A DNA stretch of 22,309 nt from IMG/VR virus record IMGVR_UViG_3300007735_000487, positions 1 to 22,309 of that record; one strand, given 5' to 3'. Positions 1,054-10,666 of the stretch are shown here, piece after piece. How positions within the stretch are numbered: position 1 is the first letter of the stretch; each line of letters begins with the position of its first letter. The notes beneath the pieces were generated by a model, which worked only from the letters and a program-made list of their open reading frames with translations, ran no database searches and was not told the origin of the DNA. The position numbers and the translations under genes are program-made. Source of the stretch: a virus.

Positions 1054-2427
1054 ATGGACATTGCTGACCTTGAGCGTAAGCTAGGAATTGATGGAATCTC
1101 TGCTGAACAGCAGATGGAGATCATTACTGCTTTGCAACAGTCTGCCGCTGAAAAGATTGCCAAGGCCAAGAGCGAATCTATTGGCAAGGGTGCTGAACTT
1201 GTTATCCAAGGCTTAAAGAAGATCAAGTCAGACATGGAGCAAAAGTTTGCTCAGTTGAATGGCGAGATTCAGAGCAAAGTTGCCTCTGTACAAGATGGAC
1301 AGGATGGCAAGAATGGAAAAGATGGACGAGATGGCAAGCAAGGGCCAGCAGGAGCAACGGGGCCAGCAGGACGAGATGGTGTTCCTGGGCGTGATGGAGT
1401 TGATGGTTCTGACGGCACTGGTGTTGCCTCTGCTCGCATTGATTTTGATGGTAGCCTTGTCATCACTCTTGATGATGGTCGTGAGATTAATGTTGGTGAG
1501 GTTGTTCCTTTTGATGTTGCTGAACGCATCAAAGTTATTACCAATGGTGGCGGTACTTCTCAGTCTGTACTTGATACTCTAACGAGTCTTCAGTCTCAAA
1601 TTACGGCTCTGTCTGGATTTGTGAACTATGAAGGCACTTGGAACGCATCAACCAACACGCCTACCCTTGTTTCTAGCACAGGAACAAAGGGAGACTACTA
1701 TGTTGTCTCTGTAACAGGATCAACCAATCTCAATGGGATTACAACTTGGACTCAAGGCGATTGGGCAATCTTTAATGGAACTGCTTGGGAAAAAGTAGAT
1801 AACACTGACCTTGTAACTTCAGTTGCAGGGCGCACTGGTGCTATTACTCTGACCACTGCTGATATTGGTGGTTTAGGAACAATTGCTACCCAGGCTGCAA
1901 ACAATGTCTCTATCACTGGTGGCTCAATCACAGGTATCACAGATTTAGCAGTTGCTGATGGTGGTACGGGCGCATCTACGGCATCAGGAGCCAGAACCAA
2001 TCTAGGGCTAGTGATTGGGACTGATGTTCTGTCTCCAAGTGGCTCGGCTGCAAGTCTGACTTCTTTTCCCACTCTTAATCAAAATACCACTGGCAATGCT
2101 GCCAATGTAACGGGTACTGTTGCGGTTGCCAATGGTGGTACAGGTGGGACAACCGCCGCTACCGCCAGAACAAACCTTGGTTTGGTAATTGGTACAGATG
2201 TTCTTGCCCCCACGGGATCAGCGGCATCTTTGACCTCATTCCCAACATTTAACCAGAACACCACTGGAACTGCAGCATCTACACCTAAACTCTTGACTAC
2301 AAACTTCACAATTGAAGAAAGTGGTGGAAAGTTGTTGTTCAAGTATGGGGCAACGACAATTGCATCAATGTCTTCAACTGGATTGATTACATCTGCAACT
2401 GACATAGTTGCAAATGGAACACCTTAA
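1054..2427 (+). CDS. Collagen-like tail fibre protein with tandem GGTG repeats
   Basis: This 457-aa protein starts directly after the portal stop (TAAATG). Residues 1-80 are helical and charged and may be the virion attachment part. Residues 82-123 are fourteen uninterrupted Gly-X-Y triplets, which predict a trimeric collagen-like shaft. Residues 190-250 hold a Trp-rich module (YEGTWNAS, KGDYYVVSV, TQGDWAIFNGTAWEKVDN) seen in many phage fibres, followed by SVAGRTGAITLT. From about residue 300 there are two 58-residue tandem copies built around GGTG...ARTNLGLVIGTDVL, a common fibre shaft repeat. The C-terminus ends DIVANGTP. It is probably a trimeric receptor-binding or side fibre. A fibre between portal and scaffold is unusual. 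The fibre call is strong; the receptor cannot be told. Confidence 0.82.
   Translation: MDIADLERKLGIDGISAEQQMEIITALQQSAAEKIAKAKSESIGKGAELVIQGLKKIKSDMEQKFAQLNGEIQSKVASVQDGQDGKNGKDGRDGKQGPAGATGPAGRDGVPGRDGVDGSDGTGVASARIDFDGSLVITLDDGREINVGEVVPFDVAERIKVITNGGGTSQSVLDTLTSLQSQITALSGFVNYEGTWNASTNTPTLVSSTGTKGDYYVVSVTGSTNLNGITTWTQGDWAIFNGTAWEKVDNTDLVTSVAGRTGAITLTTADIGGLGTIATQAANNVSITGGSITGITDLAVADGGTGASTASGARTNLGLVIGTDVLSPSGSAASLTSFPTLNQNTTGNAANVTGTVAVANGGTGGTTAATARTNLGLVIGTDVLAPTGSAASLTSFPTFNQNTTGTAASTPKLLTTNFTIEESGGKLLFKYGATTIASMSSTGLITSATDIVANGTP
1297..1422 (+). repeat. Collagen-like Gly-X-Y triplets
   Basis: These bases encode fourteen consecutive Gly-X-Y triplets (GQD GKN GKD GRD and so on, ending GSD GTG) inside the fibre gene. 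Many X-Y positions carry Lys/Asp or Arg/Asp, which in bacterial and phage collagens stabilise the triple helix without hydroxyproline. Confidence 0.9.
1951..2280 (+). repeat. Two 58-codon tandem repeats in the fibre gene
   Basis: Unit 1 begins at 1951 (VADGGTGAS) and unit 2 at 2125 (VANGGTGGT), an offset of 174 bases. They share ARTNLGLVIGTDVL, then SGSAASLTSFPT/TGSAASLTSFPT and NQNTTG. The bases have drifted more than the protein, so the duplication is not fresh. Such repeats can change fibre length by recombination. Confidence 0.85.
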
Positions 2428-2440
2428 AGGAAAGTAAATC

Positions 2441-3664
2441 ATGGCAACACAAGTCTCCCTTAACTCTGGTGCATTAGCAAGTGCAGGTGCATTGGCTATT
2501 CAAACAAATGGAACTACTGAAGCAGTAAGCATCAGCACTGGTCAAGTTGCAACTCTTGCAAAAGATGCTGTAATTCAAGGAGTAACAGTAGGCCGTGGCG
2601 CAGGTGCTATAGCCACCAACACTGCGGTGGGGTATGCGGCTTTGGCGGCTAATACAAGTGGCGCTTTTAATGCGGCGCTATCGTATAACGCTTTGACCAG
2701 TAACACAACGGGGCAAAGTAATTCAGCAGGTGGGTTAAATTCTTTAGTAAACAACACTACGGGTTCACAAAATACGGCATTTGGTTCGTCTGCTTTTTCA
2801 AGCAACACCACAGCATCTAACAACACTGCTGTGGGGTATCAGGCGGGGTATACAAATAGCACGGGGACAAACAATGTATTTTTAGGCGGTGTCGCGGGAT
2901 ATACCTCAAATGGCTCATCAAATCTTCATGTTGGATACGGCGCTGGTTATTTATCAACAGGAAGCAACAATACATTTGTAGGAGCGTTTGGCACTGGAAG
3001 CACGGCTTGCGGTGGATCAATGACCACAGGCTCAAAGAACACCATTCTTGGTAGTTACTCAGGCAACCAAGGCGGCTTAGACATTCGCACAGCAAGCAAC
3101 TACATCGTGCTGTCTGATGGGGATGGGAATCCACGGGGTATCTTTGATGGTAGCGGTAACTTGCTGGTGGGGGCTACTTCAACGCTTGGCTCAACGGCTG
3201 GTATTCTTGTTGCCAATAGCGGTGCAAATGTGCAAGCTCTTACAACAAATAGCACCTCAAGTAGCGCATATTATATTGGTAGGTTTTATTCGGGTGGCAC
3301 AGAAAAAGGTTATATATATTTTGATGGAACAAATATTTCTTACACAAGTCTTTCAGACTATCGGCTAAAAGATGATGTGCAACCAATGCAAAACGCATTG
3401 GATAAAGTTGCTCAACTTAACCCTGTAACTTACAACTGGAAAGCAAATGGAAAAGCGGGGCAAGGTTTTATTGCTCACGAATTGCAAGCTGTTATTCCTG
3501 ATTGCGTAACAGGCGAAAAAGACGCAGTGGATGCTGATGGCAACCCGCAATACCAAGGCATCGATACATCATTCTTGGTCGCCACACTGACCGCTGCCAT
3601 TCAAGAACAACAAGCCCTCATCACAACCCTCACCGCCCGTATCACTGCACTGGAGTCAGCATGA
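2441..3664 (+). CDS. Tail fibre with YadA-like head repeats and C-terminal S74 intramolecular chaperone
   Basis: The 407-aa protein starts with ATG after AAAGGAAAG. Residues about 57-205 carry YadA/trimeric-adhesin-like repeats (NTAVGYAAL, NTAFGSSAF, NTAVGYQAG, NTILGSYSG), predicting a trimeric beta structure. Residues 303-407 match the S74 (endosialidase C-terminal) chaperone: SLSDYRLKDDV with the Ser305-Asp306 pair and the SDxRxK signature, LNPVTYNWK, GFIAHELQ, then a C-terminal coiled coil (ALITTLTARITAL). In this family the domain folds the trimer and then cuts itself off before the Ser, so about 103 residues should be released. Its stop overlaps the next start (ATGA). It is very likely the second fibre or spike; host receptor unknown. 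Confidence 0.9.
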   Translation: MATQVSLNSGALASAGALAIQTNGTTEAVSISTGQVATLAKDAVIQGVTVGRGAGAIATNTAVGYAALAANTSGAFNAALSYNALTSNTTGQSNSAGGLNSLVNNTTGSQNTAFGSSAFSSNTTASNNTAVGYQAGYTNSTGTNNVFLGGVAGYTSNGSSNLHVGYGAGYLSTGSNNTFVGAFGTGSTACGGSMTTGSKNTILGSYSGNQGGLDIRTASNYIVLSDGDGNPRGIFDGSGNLLVGATSTLGSTAGILVANSGANVQALTTNSTSSSAYYIGRFYSGGTEKGYIYFDGTNISYTSLSDYRLKDDVQPMQNALDKVAQLNPVTYNWKANGKAGQGFIAHELQAVIPDCVTGEKDAVDADGNPQYQGIDTSFLVATLTAAIQEQQALITTLTARITALESA

Positions 3665-5162: not shown

Positions 5163-6116
5163 ATGGCAACCTCATTTTCCCCCAGTAACTCAGTTACTGT
5201 AACCACAGGCGCAACATTCATCCCCGAAATTTGGAGTGATGAGATTATTGCTGCTTACAAGAAAAACTTGGTTCTTGCTAACCTCGTTATGAAGATGAAC
5301 TTTAAAGGTAAGAAGGGTGATGTAGTTCACATCCCTGCACCTACCCGTGGTTCAGCTTCTGCCAAGGCCGCAGAAACAGCAGTCACTTTGATTGCCGCTA
5401 CTGAGTCTGAAGTGCAAGTGTCTATAAACAAACATTACGAGTATTCTCGTTTGATTGAAGATATTGTCGAGGCCCAAGCCCTGAACAGCTTGCGTAACTT
5501 CTACACCTCTGACGCTGGCTACTCTTTGGCTAAACAAGTTGATACCGACTTGGTTCAGTTGGGTCGCTCTACCAATGGTGGTGCTGGTACAAACGCCTAT
5601 GCAACTGGTGCGTTCATTGGTGGTGATGGTACTTCTGCTTATGTTGCCGCAAGCAACAATGAGTCAGCACTGACCGATGCCGCCATTCGCCGCACTATTC
5701 AGCGTTTGGATGACACCGATACCCCTATGGATCAGCGTTTCTTCTTGATTCCTCCATCAAGTCGCAACACCCTGATGGGTTTGGCTCGTTACACTGAACA
5801 AGCCTTTGTGGGTGGTACTAACAGCACCATTCGCACTGGCGAGATCGGTAACCTGTATGGCATTCCTGTGTTTGTCTCAAGCAATTGCGACACTGCATCA
5901 GGTTCTGCTGGCGCGCGGGTTTGCTTGATGGGTCACAGAGACGCAGTGGTTCTGGTTGAGCAAATTGCTGTTCGTTCACAAGTTCAGTACAAACAGGAGT
6001 ATTTGGCTACCCTGTTTACTTCTGATACCTTGTATGGCGTTCAGATTCTTCGTGCCGCCGCAAGCACTGGTGCAGCCAAATCTGCATCTATGTTTGCACT
6101 TTTGGTTCCCGCCTAA
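5163..6116 (+). CDS. Major capsid protein (HK97 fold)
   Basis: A 317-aa protein with a near-perfect ribosome site (AAGGAG, eight bases before ATG). It follows the scaffold and precedes a strong terminator, as expected for the most highly expressed virion gene. Recognisable capsid features: N-terminal FIPEIWSDEIIAAYKKNLVLANLV, the KGKKGDVVHIPAP segment, VSINKHYEYSRLIEDI (E-loop/spine region), a Gly-rich loop around residues 135-160, RFFLIPPSSRNTLM, GEIGNLYGIPVFVSSNC and DAVVLVEQ near the end. The IGNLYG-IPVFVS pattern is typical of this coat family in podovirus-like environmental phages. Subunits would form the icosahedral shell around the scaffold. Confidence 0.92.
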   Translation: MATSFSPSNSVTVTTGATFIPEIWSDEIIAAYKKNLVLANLVMKMNFKGKKGDVVHIPAPTRGSASAKAAETAVTLIAATESEVQVSINKHYEYSRLIEDIVEAQALNSLRNFYTSDAGYSLAKQVDTDLVQLGRSTNGGAGTNAYATGAFIGGDGTSAYVAASNNESALTDAAIRRTIQRLDDTDTPMDQRFFLIPPSSRNTLMGLARYTEQAFVGGTNSTIRTGEIGNLYGIPVFVSSNCDTASGSAGARVCLMGHRDAVVLVEQIAVRSQVQYKQEYLATLFTSDTLYGVQILRAAASTGAAKSASMFALLVPA

Positions 6117-6176: not shown

Positions 6177-6500
6177 ATGGCAGCAGCAACAGCAGTTGTT
6201 TCCCGCAGAGGAAATGACAGTTTCCGTGGTTTGTTTTCAGATACCTTTTCTGTAATAGCAACTTTGGATGCTTCATCTCTTGCAGATGGTGTAGGAGAGA
6301 CAAACACAATAGCAGTCCCAGGCGTTAAGTTGGGCGATATTGTGATGAACATTAGTATGGGTGTAGATGTTTCTGGCATCTCCATCACTTCTTATGTTTC
6401 AGCGGCTGATGTGGTGTCTATTCGTTTCCAAAACGAGTCAGGCGGCACATTAAATTTGGCATCCACCACAGTTCGCTGTGTGGTTGTTCGTTTGGTATAA
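6177..6500 (+). CDS. Probable small virion protein (decoration-like)
   Basis: A 107-aa protein with ribosome site AGGAG before ATG 6177. It looks all-beta: FSVIATLDASSLADG, NTIAVPGVKLGDIVMNISMGVDVSG, YVSAADVVSIRFQNESGG, ending in TTVRCVVVRLV. It sits alone between two terminators directly after the major capsid gene, the usual place of a head decoration or head-fibre protein. It shares its general style (GDIV/GDIL, beta strands, hydrophobic C-terminal strand) with the 112-aa protein at 8128-8466. Virion location is inferred; no family assigned. Confidence 0.75.
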   Translation: MAAATAVVSRRGNDSFRGLFSDTFSVIATLDASSLADGVGETNTIAVPGVKLGDIVMNISMGVDVSGISITSYVSAADVVSIRFQNESGGTLNLASTTVRCVVVRLV

Positions 6501-6505
6501 AGATT

Positions 6506-6530
6506 GGGGGGTTCGCCCCCCTTTCTTATT
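6506..6530 (+). terminator. Intrinsic terminator, GGGGGG-TTCG-CCCCCC
   Basis: A perfect six-pair GC stem (6506-6511 with 6516-6521) capped by TTCG, followed by TTTCTTATTT. It lies five bases after the 107-aa gene. Together with the hairpin at 6127 it brackets that gene. Confidence 0.85.
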
Positions 6531-6541
6531 TAGGGGTTTCA

Positions 6542-6748
6542 ATGGCTACTTTTCGTTGTCTTCAGTCTGGTAACACAGTAAGTTTTACCCTGCAACATGA
6601 TATTGACTCAATGAAGGGTCATCAGGGTTATGTGCGTATTGATGAGCAAGAAGTGCCTGATATTCCTGATGAAGTAAGGAGAGATACTCCTTTTATGCCG
6701 CCAGTTGTACGGCGCATGGGTCGCCCAAGGAAAGTTGCAAATGTCTGA
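6542..6748 (+). CDS. Small protein with C-terminal AT-hook-like tail
   Basis: A 68-aa protein with TAGGGG before ATG 6542. The N-terminal half looks like a small beta domain (FRCLQSGNTVSFTLQHDIDSM, HQGYVRID). The C-terminus ends VVRRMGRPRKVANV; GRPRK is an AT-hook core that binds the minor groove of AT-rich DNA. I have seen related short proteins in other freshwater phage late regions, without known function. DNA binding is inferred from the hook alone. Confidence 0.72.
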   Translation: MATFRCLQSGNTVSFTLQHDIDSMKGHQGYVRIDEQEVPDIPDEVRRDTPFMPPVVRRMGRPRKVANV

Positions 6749-6947
6749 AGAATTTGGGGCTAGAGATTTTGGAAAGCTGGAGGCTCAAGTTGAGGCTCTC
6801 CAGACAGAAGTTCACTCTTTAAGTCAAGATGTGAAGGCTTTGCTTGAGTTAGCAAACAAAGGCAAAGGTGGTTTTTGGATGGGTATGACCATCGCTTCAT
6901 TCATGGGCGGTGTTATTACCTTTGTTGCTGATCGTGTCTGGAAATAA
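6741..6947 (+). CDS. Coiled-coil plus one-TM small membrane protein (XhlA/holin-like)
   Basis: The frame is open from 6705, but ATG 6741 (MSEEFGARDF) is preferred: AAGGAAAG precedes it and the overlap with the previous gene is then only eight bases. The 68-aa product has a coiled coil (GKLEAQVEALQTEVHSLSQDVKALLELA), a KGKGG hinge and one C-terminal membrane helix (GFWMGMTIASFMGGVITFVADRV). This layout matches hemolysin XhlA-like or small accessory holin-type phage proteins. It lies far from the lysis genes, so a virion or membrane-docking role is equally possible. Confidence 0.7.
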   Translation: MSEEFGARDFGKLEAQVEALQTEVHSLSQDVKALLELANKGKGGFWMGMTIASFMGGVITFVADRVWK

Positions 6948-6958
6948 AGGAGAACGCT

Positions 6959-7129
6959 ATGTATGGAATGAAAATGGGTGGTAAGGCTAAAGAGACTAAA
7001 AGTGCTTCCAAGAAAAAGGGTGTTCCTGTGACCATCATGGTTGCAGTTGGCAAGCCAAAGATGCCAATGCCTGTGCGTGGTAGCAGAACTGCTACAAACA
7101 TGATGAAAAAATCAAGTCGTGGCAAATGA
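6959..7129 (+). CDS. Lysine-rich microprotein 1 (56 aa)
   Basis: The ATG at 6959 follows AAAGGAGAACGCT, a strong ribosome site. The 56-aa product has 12 Lys and 3 Arg against a single Glu, plus many Met (MYGMKMGGKAKETK, VPVTIMVAVGKPKMPMPVRG, NMMKKSSRGK). It opens a run of six basic small proteins and its stop overlaps the next ATG (ATGA). A short hydrophobic strand (VPVTIMVAVG) is flanked by basic tails. No family recognised; nucleic-acid contact is an inference from charge. Confidence 0.7.
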   Translation: MYGMKMGGKAKETKSASKKKGVPVTIMVAVGKPKMPMPVRGSRTATNMMKKSSRGK

Positions 7130-7272
7130 AAAAGACCAAGGCTCAAGCCAAGATCAGCAAGGTTATGAAGGAGTTTGGTGCGGGTAAGTTGACCTCCAAT
7201 AAAAAGGTTGTCAAAGACCCAAAACAAGCAATGGCAATTGCCTTGTCTGAAGCCAAAAAGGTCAAGAAATGA
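7126..7272 (+). CDS. Lysine-rich microprotein 2 (48 aa, DUF6496-like)
   Basis: Starts at ATG 7126 by ATGA overlap. The 48 residues (15 Lys) read KISKVMKEFGAGKLTSN then VVKDPKQAMAIALSEAKK. The pattern KVMxEFxxGKL...V.D.KQAiAIALSEA matches what I know as DUF6496, a small family of unknown function in bacteria and phages. Probably two helices with a basic face. It overlaps the next gene by four bases. Confidence 0.75.
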   Translation: MKKTKAQAKISKVMKEFGAGKLTSNKKVVKDPKQAMAIALSEAKKVKK

Positions 7273-7448
7273 AGACCAAATCTAAGGTCAACCAAGCTGG
7301 TGTATATACAAAACCCACCATGCGAAAAGCCTTGTTTGAGCGCATCAAGGCGGGAACTGCTGGGGGCGACCCTGGTGAGTGGTCGGCAAGAAAGGCTCAA
7401 CTGCTTGCCAAGGAATACAAAGCCAAAGGTGGAGGGTACAAGACATGA
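7269..7448 (+). CDS. Lysine-rich microprotein 3 (59 aa), conserved phage type
   Basis: Starts at ATG 7269 by ATGA overlap. Its core runs NQAGVYTKPTMRKALFERIK, then GEWSARKAQLLAKEYKAKGGGY. I recognise this pattern (YTKP.MRk.LFe.IKaG..GG.pG.WSARKAQlLa..YK..GGGY) from many environmental phage genomes, where it usually sits beside other tiny basic proteins. No function is known to me. Net charge is about +10. Two helices joined by a Gly-rich turn are likely. Confidence 0.75.
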   Translation: MKTKSKVNQAGVYTKPTMRKALFERIKAGTAGGDPGEWSARKAQLLAKEYKAKGGGYKT

Positions 7449-7594
7449 GTAAGTCCGCAACGCATTATTTGCCTGATGGCAAGGTCTATAAGGGTGAAAT
7501 GCACAAGGTAGGCAAGACTTTGATGACAGGTGCAAAACACACTCCTGAGAGCAAAAAGCTGTCACACACACCTCCAAAGAAGGCAAAGAAGTGA
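7445..7594 (+). CDS. Lysine-rich microprotein 4 (49 aa)
   Basis: ATG 7445 (MSKSATHYLPDGKVYKGE) overlaps the previous stop by four bases. The frame is open back to 7379, but the coupled ATG is preferred because it matches the pattern of its neighbours. The N-terminal half (THYLPDGKVYKGEMHKVGK, TLMTGAKHTPESKKL) occurs in other phages as a short conserved piece; the C-terminus is a basic tail (PPKKAKK). Net charge about +9. Unknown function. Confidence 0.7.
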   Translation: MSKSATHYLPDGKVYKGEMHKVGKTLMTGAKHTPESKKLSHTPPKKAKK

Positions 7595-7824
7595 AGAATC
7601 CACAGCAGTCTCTCAAAGATTGGTCTGCACAGAAATGGCGCACCAAGTCAGGCAAACCATCTTCACAGACAGGTGAAAGGTATCTGCCAGAGGCGGCAAT
7701 CAAGGCTTTGAGTCCTGCTGAGTATGCGGCAACCACCAAGGCAAAGCGCAAGGGCACTGCTTCTGGCAAACAGTTTGTCAAGCAACCCAAAGCGATTGCA
7801 AAGAAAACGGCTAGTTTTAGATGA
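7591..7824 (+). CDS. Lysine-rich microprotein 5 (77 aa, DUF5872-like)
   Basis: It starts at GTG 7591, which overlaps the previous TGA (GTGA). The 77 residues include LKDWSAQKWRTKSGKPSSQT, GERYLPEAAIKALSPAEYAA and KQFVKQPKAIAKKTASFR. The pattern (W..QkWrtKsGKpS...ERYLPe.Ai.aLs..EYAATt.aKr.g...GkQfv.QPk.IAkKt) is one I associate with DUF5872, a family found in phages and large DNA viruses without known function. Strongly basic. The family name is from memory and should be checked by profile search. Confidence 0.75.
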   Translation: MKNPQQSLKDWSAQKWRTKSGKPSSQTGERYLPEAAIKALSPAEYAATTKAKRKGTASGKQFVKQPKAIAKKTASFR

Positions 7825-7831
7825 GGTAGAT

Positions 7832-8131
7832 ATGAAAACTCCTGCATGGCAACGAAAAGAGGGGCAAAACCCGAAAGGTGGCTTAAATGCCAAAGGTCGT
7901 GCGAGTTTGAAGGCCGCTGGTCAAGATATTAAACCTCCTGTAAAATCAGGCGATAATCCACGCAGAGCAAGTTTCTTGGCTCGAATGGCTGGCAATGATG
8001 GCCCTGAGTTCAAGAATGGTGAACCAACGAGACTGCTTCTTTCGCTGAAAGCATGGGGCGCAAGTTCCAAGGCTGATGCAAAGGCAAAAGCTAGAGCAAT
8101 TTCCGCAAGGAACAAGGCAAAGGCGAAATGA
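7832..8131 (+). CDS. Lysine-rich protein 6 (99 aa, DUF6321-like)
   Basis: The frame is open from 7724, but ATG 7832 follows GAGG with good spacing and begins the conserved part (MKTPAWQRKEGQNPKGGLNA). The 99 residues contain GRASLKAAG, PVKSGDNPRRASFLARM, GPEFKNGEPTRLLLSLKAWG and a Lys/Ala-rich C-terminal helix (KADAKAKARAISARNKAKAK). I know this pattern as DUF6321, widespread in environmental phages and of unknown function. It ends the basic cluster; its stop overlaps the next gene (ATGA). Confidence 0.78.
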   Translation: MKTPAWQRKEGQNPKGGLNAKGRASLKAAGQDIKPPVKSGDNPRRASFLARMAGNDGPEFKNGEPTRLLLSLKAWGASSKADAKAKARAISARNKAKAK

Positions 8132-8466
8132 GAGCAATTTCAGTTGGTGCAAACCTAACAGCAACAACAAACACAACTCTTTTCACAATACCCACTGGGT
8201 ACTATGGACGGGTTGTTTTGCTTCGTGCCGCAAATGCCAGCGGCTCAAACAAACACATTACCTTTGATTGGACAGACACTTCTGCGGCTACCACATATTC
8301 GCTTGTCTATCAAACAACAGTTGCCTCCAAAACCACCCAAGATTGGGGAAGCTCAATGGCGTATTTTGTTATGGAAGAAGGCGACATTCTAAAAGCAACA
8401 TCTGAGTCTGCTTCAACATTTGCTGTGGCGGTGACCATTGAACTTGAAGGAGTATCCAGAATATGA
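8128..8466 (+). CDS. Probable small beta-rich virion protein
   Basis: A 112-aa protein coupled by ATGA to the basic cluster. It appears all-beta (MRAISVGANLTATTNTTLFTI, GYYGRVVLLRAANASG, YSLVYQTTVASKT, AYFVMEEGDILKATSES, AVAVTIELEGVSRI). The EGDILKA...VTIELEGV pattern is frequent in small phage head or tail proteins that decorate virions. Position between the basic cluster and the adaptor supports a virion role. No enzyme motif seen. Confidence 0.72.
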   Translation: MRAISVGANLTATTNTTLFTIPTGYYGRVVLLRAANASGSNKHITFDWTDTSAATTYSLVYQTTVASKTTQDWGSSMAYFVMEEGDILKATSESASTFAVAVTIELEGVSRI

Positions 8467-9110
8467 CGTTACTAGAACTTGTCAACGATGTGTTGATCCG
8501 CTTGCGTGAACCCGTTGTAACGACTTACAACGAAACCACCTATTCCACCTTGGTTGCAAAGTTTGTAAACGATGCAAAGCGGCAAGTTGAAGATTCGTAT
8601 GGTTGGAACGCATTAGGACAGACTATCACTGTGACTACTGCGGCCTCAACTGCATCTTACTCACTCACAGGTGCAGGTCAAAAGTTTCAGGTGCTTGATG
8701 CTATCAACACGACCAGTAATGTTGGTTTGACTAACATCACATTTGTGGACATGAACCGCAAACAGAACTTCTTACCCCTGGTTAACTCAATTCCAACAGA
8801 ATTTACTTTTGATGGCCTAGATGGGTCTTACGATACAAAAGTCAGTTTGTTTCCAATTCCTGATGGCGTGTACATACTGAAATTCAGTCTGACCATACCC
8901 CAGGCAACTTTGGCATCCAACAGCACTGTTGTTCTTGTGCCTGATGTAGTTGTTGCTCAAGGTGCGTATGCCAGGGCATTGGTTGAGCGTGGTGAAGATG
9001 GTGGATTGTCTTCATCAGAGGCATATACACTATTCCGATCCATGCTCTCTGATTACATTGCTTTAGAGGCAAATCGGTATCCAGAAAATCAGCAATTTGT
9101 ACCACAATGA
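8463..9110 (+). CDS. Head-tail adaptor protein (SU10/P22 gp4-like)
   Basis: A 215-aa protein starting at ATG 8463 (ATGA overlap; AAGGAG lies eleven bases upstream). The N-terminus MTLLELVNDVLIRLREPVV followed by STLVAKFVNDAKRQVEDSYGWNAL is the signature I associate with adaptor/connector proteins of short-tailed phages, which dock under the portal ring. A beta domain follows (TITVTTAASTASYSL, KVSLFPIPDGVYILKFSL), then a C-terminal helical part (VVAQGAYARALVERGEDGG, AYTLFRSMLSDYIALEANRYPE). It sits directly before the nozzle gene, as in P22-like plans. Good confidence for adaptor; the exact subfamily is less sure. Confidence 0.8.
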   Translation: MTLLELVNDVLIRLREPVVTTYNETTYSTLVAKFVNDAKRQVEDSYGWNALGQTITVTTAASTASYSLTGAGQKFQVLDAINTTSNVGLTNITFVDMNRKQNFLPLVNSIPTEFTFDGLDGSYDTKVSLFPIPDGVYILKFSLTIPQATLASNSTVVLVPDVVVAQGAYARALVERGEDGGLSSSEAYTLFRSMLSDYIALEANRYPENQQFVPQ

Positions 9111-10666
9111 GCCAACAAATCCAGACTTTCTCTGTTTCAGCCCCAGGCTTTTATGGGTTGAACACACAGGACTCTCCGCTTGATTTAGCGGCTGGATATG
9201 CTGCGATTGCTACAAACTGCGTGATTGACCAGTATGGGCGTATTGGCTCTCGTAAGGGTTTTTCAAGAGTTAACGCAGCCTCTGGCAACCTTGGTGCTAA
9301 CAACATCAATGTTTTGCATGAATTGGTGCAGACTGATGGCAGTTTAACTGTACTGTTTTCGGGCAACAACAAGCTGTTTAAACTGAGTTCAACAAACACA
9401 GTAACAGAATTGACCTATGGCGGTGGTGGGACTGCCCCAACAATTACGGCAACCAATTGGCATTGTGCATCTTTGAATGGAATAACTTATTTCTTTCAAA
9501 CAGGCTATGACCCACTGATCTATGACCCTGCTGTAAGTCTCACCACATTTAGGCGTGTAAGTGAGAAAACGGGTTATGTTGCCACTGCTCCCCAGACCAA
9601 CATTGTTATCTCTGCTTATGGTCGTTTATGGACTGCTAGTAGCACTGCTGACAATGTAACTGTCTATTTCTCTGACTTGCTGGCAGGACACATTTGGTCA
9701 ACAGGAACTGCTGGTTCTTTAGACATTTCACGGGTGTGGCCCAATGGGTCTGATGAGATTACAGGGTTGGCAGCACACAATGGGTTCTTGTTTATCTTTG
9801 GCAAAAGACAGATTCTTGTTTATGCCAATGCAACAACCCCTGCCAGCTTAGTTCTGAGTGACAGTATTAGCAACATTGGTTGTATCGCAAGGGATTCCAT
9901 TGCCAACACAGGCAGTGATGTGGTTTTCTTGTCAAACAGTGGTGTTCGTTCATTGCTTAGAACCATTCAAGAGAAGTCTGCACCTTTGCGTGACTTATCT
10001 AAGAATGTGCGTAATGACTTGATGGAAATTGTCAATGCTGAGACATTGGCAAACATCAAAGCAGTCTATTCAGAGTCAAATGCTTTTTACCTGATTAACT
10101 TCCCTCTTGCCACACAGACCTACTGCTTTGACACCAAAGCGGCTTTGCAAGATGGTTCTTCACGGGTAACTGTGTGGGATTCCATCACTCCAACTGCTTT
10201 CCTTGCTAAACGCAATGGAGACTTGTTGATTGGCAAGAATGGTTATGTGGGCAAGTATGGAACCTATCTTGACCATGCAAGCACATATCGATTGCAGTAT
10301 TTCACCACTTATGCTGACTTGGGACAGGCCAATGTCACCTCTATCCTCAAGCGCATTGCTGTGGTGGTGATTGGTGGATCAAGCCAAGGTTTTGTCATCA
10401 AGTGGGGATATGACTTCTCTGGTCAGTATTACGCCACTACATTGCAAATTCCTCAGTCTACTGTGTCTGAATATGGGACTGCTGAATATGGGGCAAATGG
10501 TGTTCCTGTTGCCTACTACTCAGATGGCATTTCTTTACAGACTTTGGTTGGTCAAACATCAGGTTCTGGTAAGACTGTGCAGACGGGTTATGAAGTGCAG
10601 ATCAATGGTTATCCTGTGAGCATTCAAAAGATTGAGATACAAGCCAAGAACGGCAAACTGGTTTAA
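9107..10666 (+). CDS. Tail nozzle / stabilisation protein (P22 gp10-like)
   Basis: A 519-aa protein joined to the adaptor by ATGA; no clear ribosome site precedes it, so translational coupling is likely. The N-terminus SVSAPGFYGLNTQDSPLDL, then GYAAIATNCVIDQYGRIGSRKGF, is typical of phage tail nozzle proteins. The body is beta-propeller-like with repeated strands (VLHELVQTDGSLTVLFSGNNKLF, LNGITYFFQTGYDPLIYD, AYGRLWTASSTADN, VYFSDLLAGHIWSTG, LAAHNGFLFIFGKRQILVY, NTGSDVVFLSNSGVRSL). In P22-like virions this hexameric protein closes the tail below the adaptor. Assigned from motif recall and position. Confidence 0.8.
   Translation: MSQQIQTFSVSAPGFYGLNTQDSPLDLAAGYAAIATNCVIDQYGRIGSRKGFSRVNAASGNLGANNINVLHELVQTDGSLTVLFSGNNKLFKLSSTNTVTELTYGGGGTAPTITATNWHCASLNGITYFFQTGYDPLIYDPAVSLTTFRRVSEKTGYVATAPQTNIVISAYGRLWTASSTADNVTVYFSDLLAGHIWSTGTAGSLDISRVWPNGSDEITGLAAHNGFLFIFGKRQILVYANATTPASLVLSDSISNIGCIARDSIANTGSDVVFLSNSGVRSLLRTIQEKSAPLRDLSKNVRNDLMEIVNAETLANIKAVYSESNAFYLINFPLATQTYCFDTKAALQDGSSRVTVWDSITPTAFLAKRNGDLLIGKNGYVGKYGTYLDHASTYRLQYFTTYADLGQANVTSILKRIAVVVIGGSSQGFVIKWGYDFSGQYYATTLQIPQSTVSEYGTAEYGANGVPVAYYSDGISLQTLVGQTSGSGKTVQTGYEVQINGYPVSIQKIEIQAKNGKLV

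Follow-up and report, generated by a model that had tools for sequence, protein, structure and literature searches.

What might six very small, very basic proteins do for a virus that encodes them one after another between its capsid and tail genes? The question is raised by a 22-kb fragment of a freshwater virus that infects bacteria, the whole of which (22,309 nt) was analysed and is referred to here as the window. Six small ORFs, designated A to F, lie in a row on its + strand at 6959–8131 (Table 1). They had been described in an earlier note as Lys-rich with net charges of about +9 or more, and this was exact; the measured charges range from +9 to +16 and sum to +75 for one copy of each protein. 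The pI values were 10.1–11.4, and charge density was 16–25 net charges per 100 residues, compared with 7.4 or less in the other window genes that were checked.

Table 1. Coordinates of the six basic genes and of their neighbours in the window
Feature	Position	Strand	Product	Family match
Major capsid protein, left syntenic neighbour	5163..6116	+	order kept in relatives	phrog_267 (1.4e-52)
Three small non-basic genes, from capsid gene to cassette	6177..6947	+	107, 68 and 67 aa	
A	6959..7129	+	56 aa, +14; starts MYGK, K/M-rich, conserved (M)P-RG-RTATN motif	
B	7126..7272	+	48 aa, +12	DUF6496 (PF20106), marginal
C	7269..7448	+	59 aa, +10; motif WSARKAQLLAK-YK--GGGY	phrog_17747 (4.7e-34)
D	7445..7594	+	49 aa, +9; motif HYLPDGKVYKG--HK-G--LMTGAKH	
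E	7591..7824	+	77 aa, +14; GTG start	phrog_14910 (2.2e-37)
F	7832..8131	+	99 aa, +16	DUF6321 (PF19846), phrog_4689
Right neighbour, 4-nt overlap with F	8128..8466	+	112 aa, net −2	
Two tail/connector genes, right boundary	8463..10666	+	215 and 519 aa	phrog_10775; phrog_5107, phrog_3287, phrog_578

Gene A is preceded by a strong Shine–Dalgarno sequence (AAAGGAG), and F starts 7 nt past the stop of E with a GAGG of its own. The four-base joins that had been noticed among the first five genes were seen at every junction (ATGA at A/B, B/C and C/D, GTGA at D/E), the starts of B–E lying inside the stop codon of the preceding gene. Overlaps of 4 nt were, however, frequent across the operon (3661/3664, 8128/8131 between F and the following gene, 8463/8466 and 9107/9110) and are therefore not peculiar to the basic genes. 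Compared with 31–99 relatives per gene, pN/pS was 0.24, 0.15, 0.08, 0.17, 0.16 and 0.18 for A to F, respectively; these are thus genuine genes under purifying selection. Of 63 loci compared, the window alone had an open antisense ORF of 234 aa (7143–7847, − strand) spanning C, D and E. It was therefore taken to be a by-product of Lys-rich coding and, not being conserved in relatives, was dropped as a candidate gene.

The family labels that had been proposed fared unevenly. F was clearly assigned to DUF6321 (68.4 bits against a cut-off of 28.5, covering positions 2–72 of the 72 in the profile) and B came just above the DUF6496 cut-off (25.9 bits, cut-off 24; 23.1 bits in a six-frame search), whereas the DUF5872-like label had to be abandoned, Pfam giving no match to this family for A–F at E ≤ 1 or for 11 relatives of E at E ≤ 10. 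DUF5872 as the identity of E or C thus found no Pfam support, and the profile of E was unlike the N-terminal module of the DUF6321 protein of phage P-RSM4. Pfam and PHROG searches gave no family for A and D; A is fused to B in one relative locus (L079:164–358). Literature searches by name found nothing on DUF6321 or DUF6496 and one mention of DUF5872, in an algal virus.

F is a member of DUF6321 by the curated cut-off, the definition of which does not include the Cys pair (SFCARM ... W.C) found in most relatives; F lacks both residues, with SFLARM and AWGAS in place of SFCARM and AWNC. Across the aligned members the pair was all-or-none, being absent as a whole from F of the window, MEP401 and L144 and present as a whole in the others, which suggests a disulfide or a shared metal site. 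No solved structures were found for F. Structure prediction, which had been recommended for these proteins, was applied to C and E as single chains using AlphaFold2; C was predicted as a two-helix protein (pLDDT 74) and E as a compact helical fold (pLDDT 87). Neither the confident model of E nor the weaker one of C showed a known DNA-binding fold or matched a solved structure in the PDB, and the structural relatives of E were confined to the viral library, with no useful name among them. Naming C and E by fold was consequently given up.

About 150 IMG/VR loci were gathered with E or D as bait, and the sample consists of the best matches to E or D. Within the lineage of the window, whose members have the capsid protein in common, the order capsid–6177–6542–(6744)–A to F–8128–tail genes was kept, and the location between capsid and tail genes was retained in dozens of IMG/VR relatives. 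In other groups the same families occurred in a new order, for example as F–C–D–E, or as C–D–E immediately before terL and portal. Shorter or longer runs of these families were present in pelagiphages, an OM43 phage, cyanopodoviruses and HMO-2011-type phages, the hosts including Pelagibacter, Roseobacter, OM43 and cyanobacteria. HTVC033P has seven consecutive basic genes, running from C through E and X (described below) to F, with charges of +15 to +22 each; HTVC034P has a run of four or five tiny basic genes, MEP401 has four followed by terL, and HTVC168P has three between the scaffold and capsid genes. The T7-like cyanopodovirus P-SCSP1i has the order MCP–F–X–gp11 (tail tube), with an F of 84 aa (DUF6321, 78 bits) and an X of 58 aa. 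The cassette is modular, in that phages draw varied combinations from a common pool (A, B, C+E, D, F, X, Y and others).

Several minor variants were also seen. Between A and B or C, relatives had an additional gene that is not basic and encodes 94 or 105 aa (L027:1770–2054 and L140:7535–7852), the 105-aa type giving a weak match to DUF7243. At L009:2952–3092 and L012:8271–8411, D was replaced by a Cys-rich basic protein of 31–46 aa (KPCAGCPTPSKCKAMGKC), perhaps a small metal binder.

The strongest link within the pool was that between C and E. A tblastn search of 50,697 phage records gave 17 records with C and 19 with E, of which 16 were common to both. The apparent cases of C without E, or of E without C, were each shown on inspection to have both, so that the two were present together in all 20 of the records with either. 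At least two phages carry a C–E fusion, Hodr (L006:4821–5219) and S-CRES1 (gp97), and S-EIVl has C plus an E-like start with the remainder of E 0.3 kb off; S-CRES2 is a near-identical sister of S-CRES1, and this exception was settled on the S-CRES1 sequence only. The two genes mostly lay side by side, but the distance between them reached 1.8 kb in HMO-2011, and physical linkage alone is therefore insufficient to explain their pairing. C and E form an obligate pair, that is, one unit. Directly upstream of the fusion gene in S-CRES1 lies a further small gene, gp96 (L180:2037–2360, charge about +29), possibly another family of the pool.

The loci selected with D, a bait that is unbiased for C or E, were used for counting these two genes. 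C and E were both present in 41 of them, X was present without C and E in 25, and mixed loci were not found. X (phrog_16028; 'MKxGLYANI') was thus a basic gene of every one of the 25 D-selected loci that had neither C nor E. It typically occupies the position of C, D then joining F directly, and was recorded at L096:4124–4276 and 28 other loci as well as in P-SCSP1u (L166:4977–5153); in T7-like cyanopodoviruses it lies between the capsid and tail-tube genes, and X–C fusions occur in L065 and L043. X can stand in for C+E. The swap amounted to six changes on both the capsid (MCP) and the tail-protein trees, only three independent pairs lying on well-supported branches, and D tended to move together with it. 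Linked block exchange therefore accounts for part of the swap, and the idea that two separate genes had each been lost independently many times was rejected.

The earlier note had taken the six genes to be one system rather than stray ORFs. This view was upheld by the conserved order, the translational coupling, the fusions, the obligate pairing of C and E and the runs in unrelated phages; relatives did not carry the genes dispersed and independently of one another, even if members were swapped and reordered between phage groups.

Evidence on where such proteins end up came from cyanophages. In cyanomyoviruses DUF6321 forms the C-terminal end of a longer Lys-rich protein (T4-GC 119), the gene for which is flanked by those for the small and large terminase, whereas F stands alone as a protein of 99 aa and has no Cys pair. 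One such protein, ORF137 of S-CREM2 (40.8 bits against the DUF6321 profile), was detected by mass spectrometry of CsCl-purified particles with four unique peptides, the coverage being only 4.1 % (PMC10665884, Table 3). The virion proteome of S-SCSM1 lists 45 proteins from CsCl-purified virions (PMC9602691), and SSCSM1_29 of this phage (517 aa, DUF6321 79.5 bits) is annotated as 'virion protein'. Both virion preparations also held enzymes that are unlikely to be structural (PMC10665884, PMC9602691). In the records of S-SM2 and P-RSM4, the DUF6321 gene carries the remark 'similar to Synechococcus phage S-SM1 protein', which is also found on the virion genes gp13, gp14 and gp15, and in S-SM2 on gp18, gp19, gp20, gp21, gp23 and gp3, but is absent from terminase and replication genes, several of whose clusters S-SM1 nevertheless shares. 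Genes bearing the remark are probably orthologous to those for the 41 virion proteins of S-SM1 (PMC3037559). Proteins ending in DUF6321 were thus detected by mass spectrometry in the virions of two distant cyanophages, S-CREM2 and S-SCSM1, though the peptides detected may fall outside the domain itself. Neither the F nor the X product is mentioned in the cryo-EM text for P-SCSP1u. In S-SM2 the DUF6321 protein (L164:6802–8928) also has a DUF192 domain (85 bits), showing that the basic module is freely fused to other proteins.

Another line of evidence concerns Y (KWIQ-AIKKPGALR...), a basic family of the pool that adjoins E in several relatives and is absent from the window (L128:765–938, L098:10380–10559, L129:6810–6983; L168:3501–3704). 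Y aligned over its full length with ORF9 of Thermus virus IN93 (hhalign E 2.2e-10, 43 % identity), which has been described as a homologue of VP2 (PMC9608457) and matched the Pfam Fusello_VP2 family (PF25632) with 54.4 bits (cut-off 27). Compared directly with PF25632, Y gave values of 0.0001–0.054, below the cut-off, and its link to VP2 runs through IN93 ORF9. SSV1 VP2 is a virion-associated DNA-binding protein that is dispensable under laboratory conditions (PMC4158269, PMC9608457). The pool thus includes at least one family from an established class of DNA-binding virion proteins, and the dispensability of VP2 fits with the swapping of cassette members. VP2 and IN93 ORF9 resemble the cassette proteins in being tiny, basic, virion-associated, DNA-binding and scattered over unrelated viruses (PMC4158269, PMC9608457); unlike these, the six window families are not VP2, as none of the six proteins matched the PF25632 profile, and the homologue Y lies outside the window.

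On balance, and by a narrow preference, A–F are best explained as small cationic proteins, forming a modular set, that are packed with the DNA or act on it in the head. Packaging with the DNA, as the earlier note had proposed, has indirect support in the DUF6321 proteins of cyanophage virions and in the homology of Y to IN93 ORF9; for the window's own proteins we infer virion presence, DNA binding and condensation, and A–F are probably packed with the viral DNA. The cassette would be expressed late and translationally coupled, and its products would join the phage DNA during or after packaging. There they might coat or bridge the DNA entering the head, or line the interior of the head, and stay with the DNA, so ending up inside the head at least in part. 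Positive charge together with the bridging of DNA segments could make tight packing easier and/or protect the DNA on ejection. C and E would act as a unit, whether as two associated subunits or fused into a single chain, and the remaining members would add charge and anchoring to capsid or DNA.

For an assumed genome of 40 kb, with 80,000 phosphates, about 100 copies of each protein would neutralise approximately 10 %. The internal proteins of T4 (IPs) are present at about 360 copies each (PMC9026906); about 100 copies are therefore possible, but this is arithmetic and not evidence. A 2012 paper states that there is no evidence for much neutralisation of phage DNA by basic proteins and that little room is left for these proteins (PMC3281028), and the simplest reading of the cassette contradicts this view of basic proteins as minor contributors in tailed phages. 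Tryptic proteomics with filter-aided preparation would be ill-suited to Lys-rich proteins of less than 10 kDa, and absence from published lists would therefore mean little.

Among the closest known parallels are T4 IPI, IPII and IPIII, which are likewise several small basic head proteins, bind DNA at low salt and are singly (nearly) dispensable (PMC9026906). The T4 proteins carry a capsid-targeting propeptide that is cut by gp21; no prohead protease gene was identified among the window genes scanned. T4 has three internal proteins, whereas the window has a single coupled block of six, whose members can be exchanged, and family searches gave no sequence relation between A–F and the T4 proteins. 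The protamine-like core proteins of adenoviruses and baculoviruses and the basic DNA-binding proteins of chlorella viruses are also basic virion proteins that are thought to neutralise DNA (PMC3281028, PMC6163548); these eukaryotic dsDNA viruses differ in using other packaging routes, and the window proteins are Lys-rich, not Arg-rich.

The T4 precedent also lends itself to another interpretation, namely that the proteins are packaged but act after ejection as injected anti-host or anti-restriction proteins, protecting the DNA or altering the host nucleoid. IPI–III leave the head along with the DNA, and IPI acts as an inhibitor of a restriction enzyme (PMC9026906); the fast swapping of cassette members resembles that of accessory anti-defence genes. 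We nevertheless consider this unlikely, if quite conceivable, since the families recur across very different hosts, which a generic DNA or head function fits better than a host-specific target, and the low pN/pS values carry no sign of arms-race diversification.

Gene position might instead point to accessories of head assembly or DNA packaging that work with scaffold, terminase or portal and are not retained in the mature virion. The genes adjoin capsid and scaffold genes, or elsewhere sit just upstream of terL (MEP401; C–D–E–terL–portal), and in cyanomyoviruses the DUF6321 gene is placed between the two terminase genes. The recovery of DUF6321 proteins from purified virions argues against this, and the interchange of unrelated families of like charge is hard to square with specific contacts to the motor; such a role is accordingly improbable.

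High charge alone is also compatible with RNA binding, and small Lys-rich proteins may bind DNA and RNA non-specifically. The products could on this account be late nucleic-acid binders of the infected cell that silence the host nucleoid or bind RNA or ribosomes and are not parts of the virion, but the genes are embedded in the late structural region wherever the context is known and the F family has virion evidence, so that we hold this to be very unlikely. Spurious or neutral short ORFs thrown up by Lys-rich (AAG/AAA) sequence, as their shortness, low complexity and long antisense open frames might suggest, have practically no probability left, this reading being refuted by the pN/pS values, by motifs and order conserved over many loci and isolates and by the lack of conservation of the antisense ORF.

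The cassette brings DUF6321, DUF6496, phrog_17747, phrog_14910, phrog_16028 and the VP2-like family together in one probable functional class. It was met repeatedly in phages whose hosts, SAR11, SAR116, OM43 and marine cyanobacteria, are very abundant in aquatic habitats. A bolder proposal, which we regard as possible but rather doubtful, is that tailed phages of aquatic habitats package, along with their DNA, varying combinations of small cationic proteins from a common pool of interchangeable families as a phage 'chromatin', in which C+E would form a unit of two parts and X would replace it; this would run counter to the view that basic proteins are hardly used by tailed phages to neutralise DNA.

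Elsewhere in the window, two tail-fibre-like genes, one of which has collagen-like repeats, lie at 1054–3664 between the portal and the scaffold/capsid genes, an unusual site for fibres in a podovirus-like late region.
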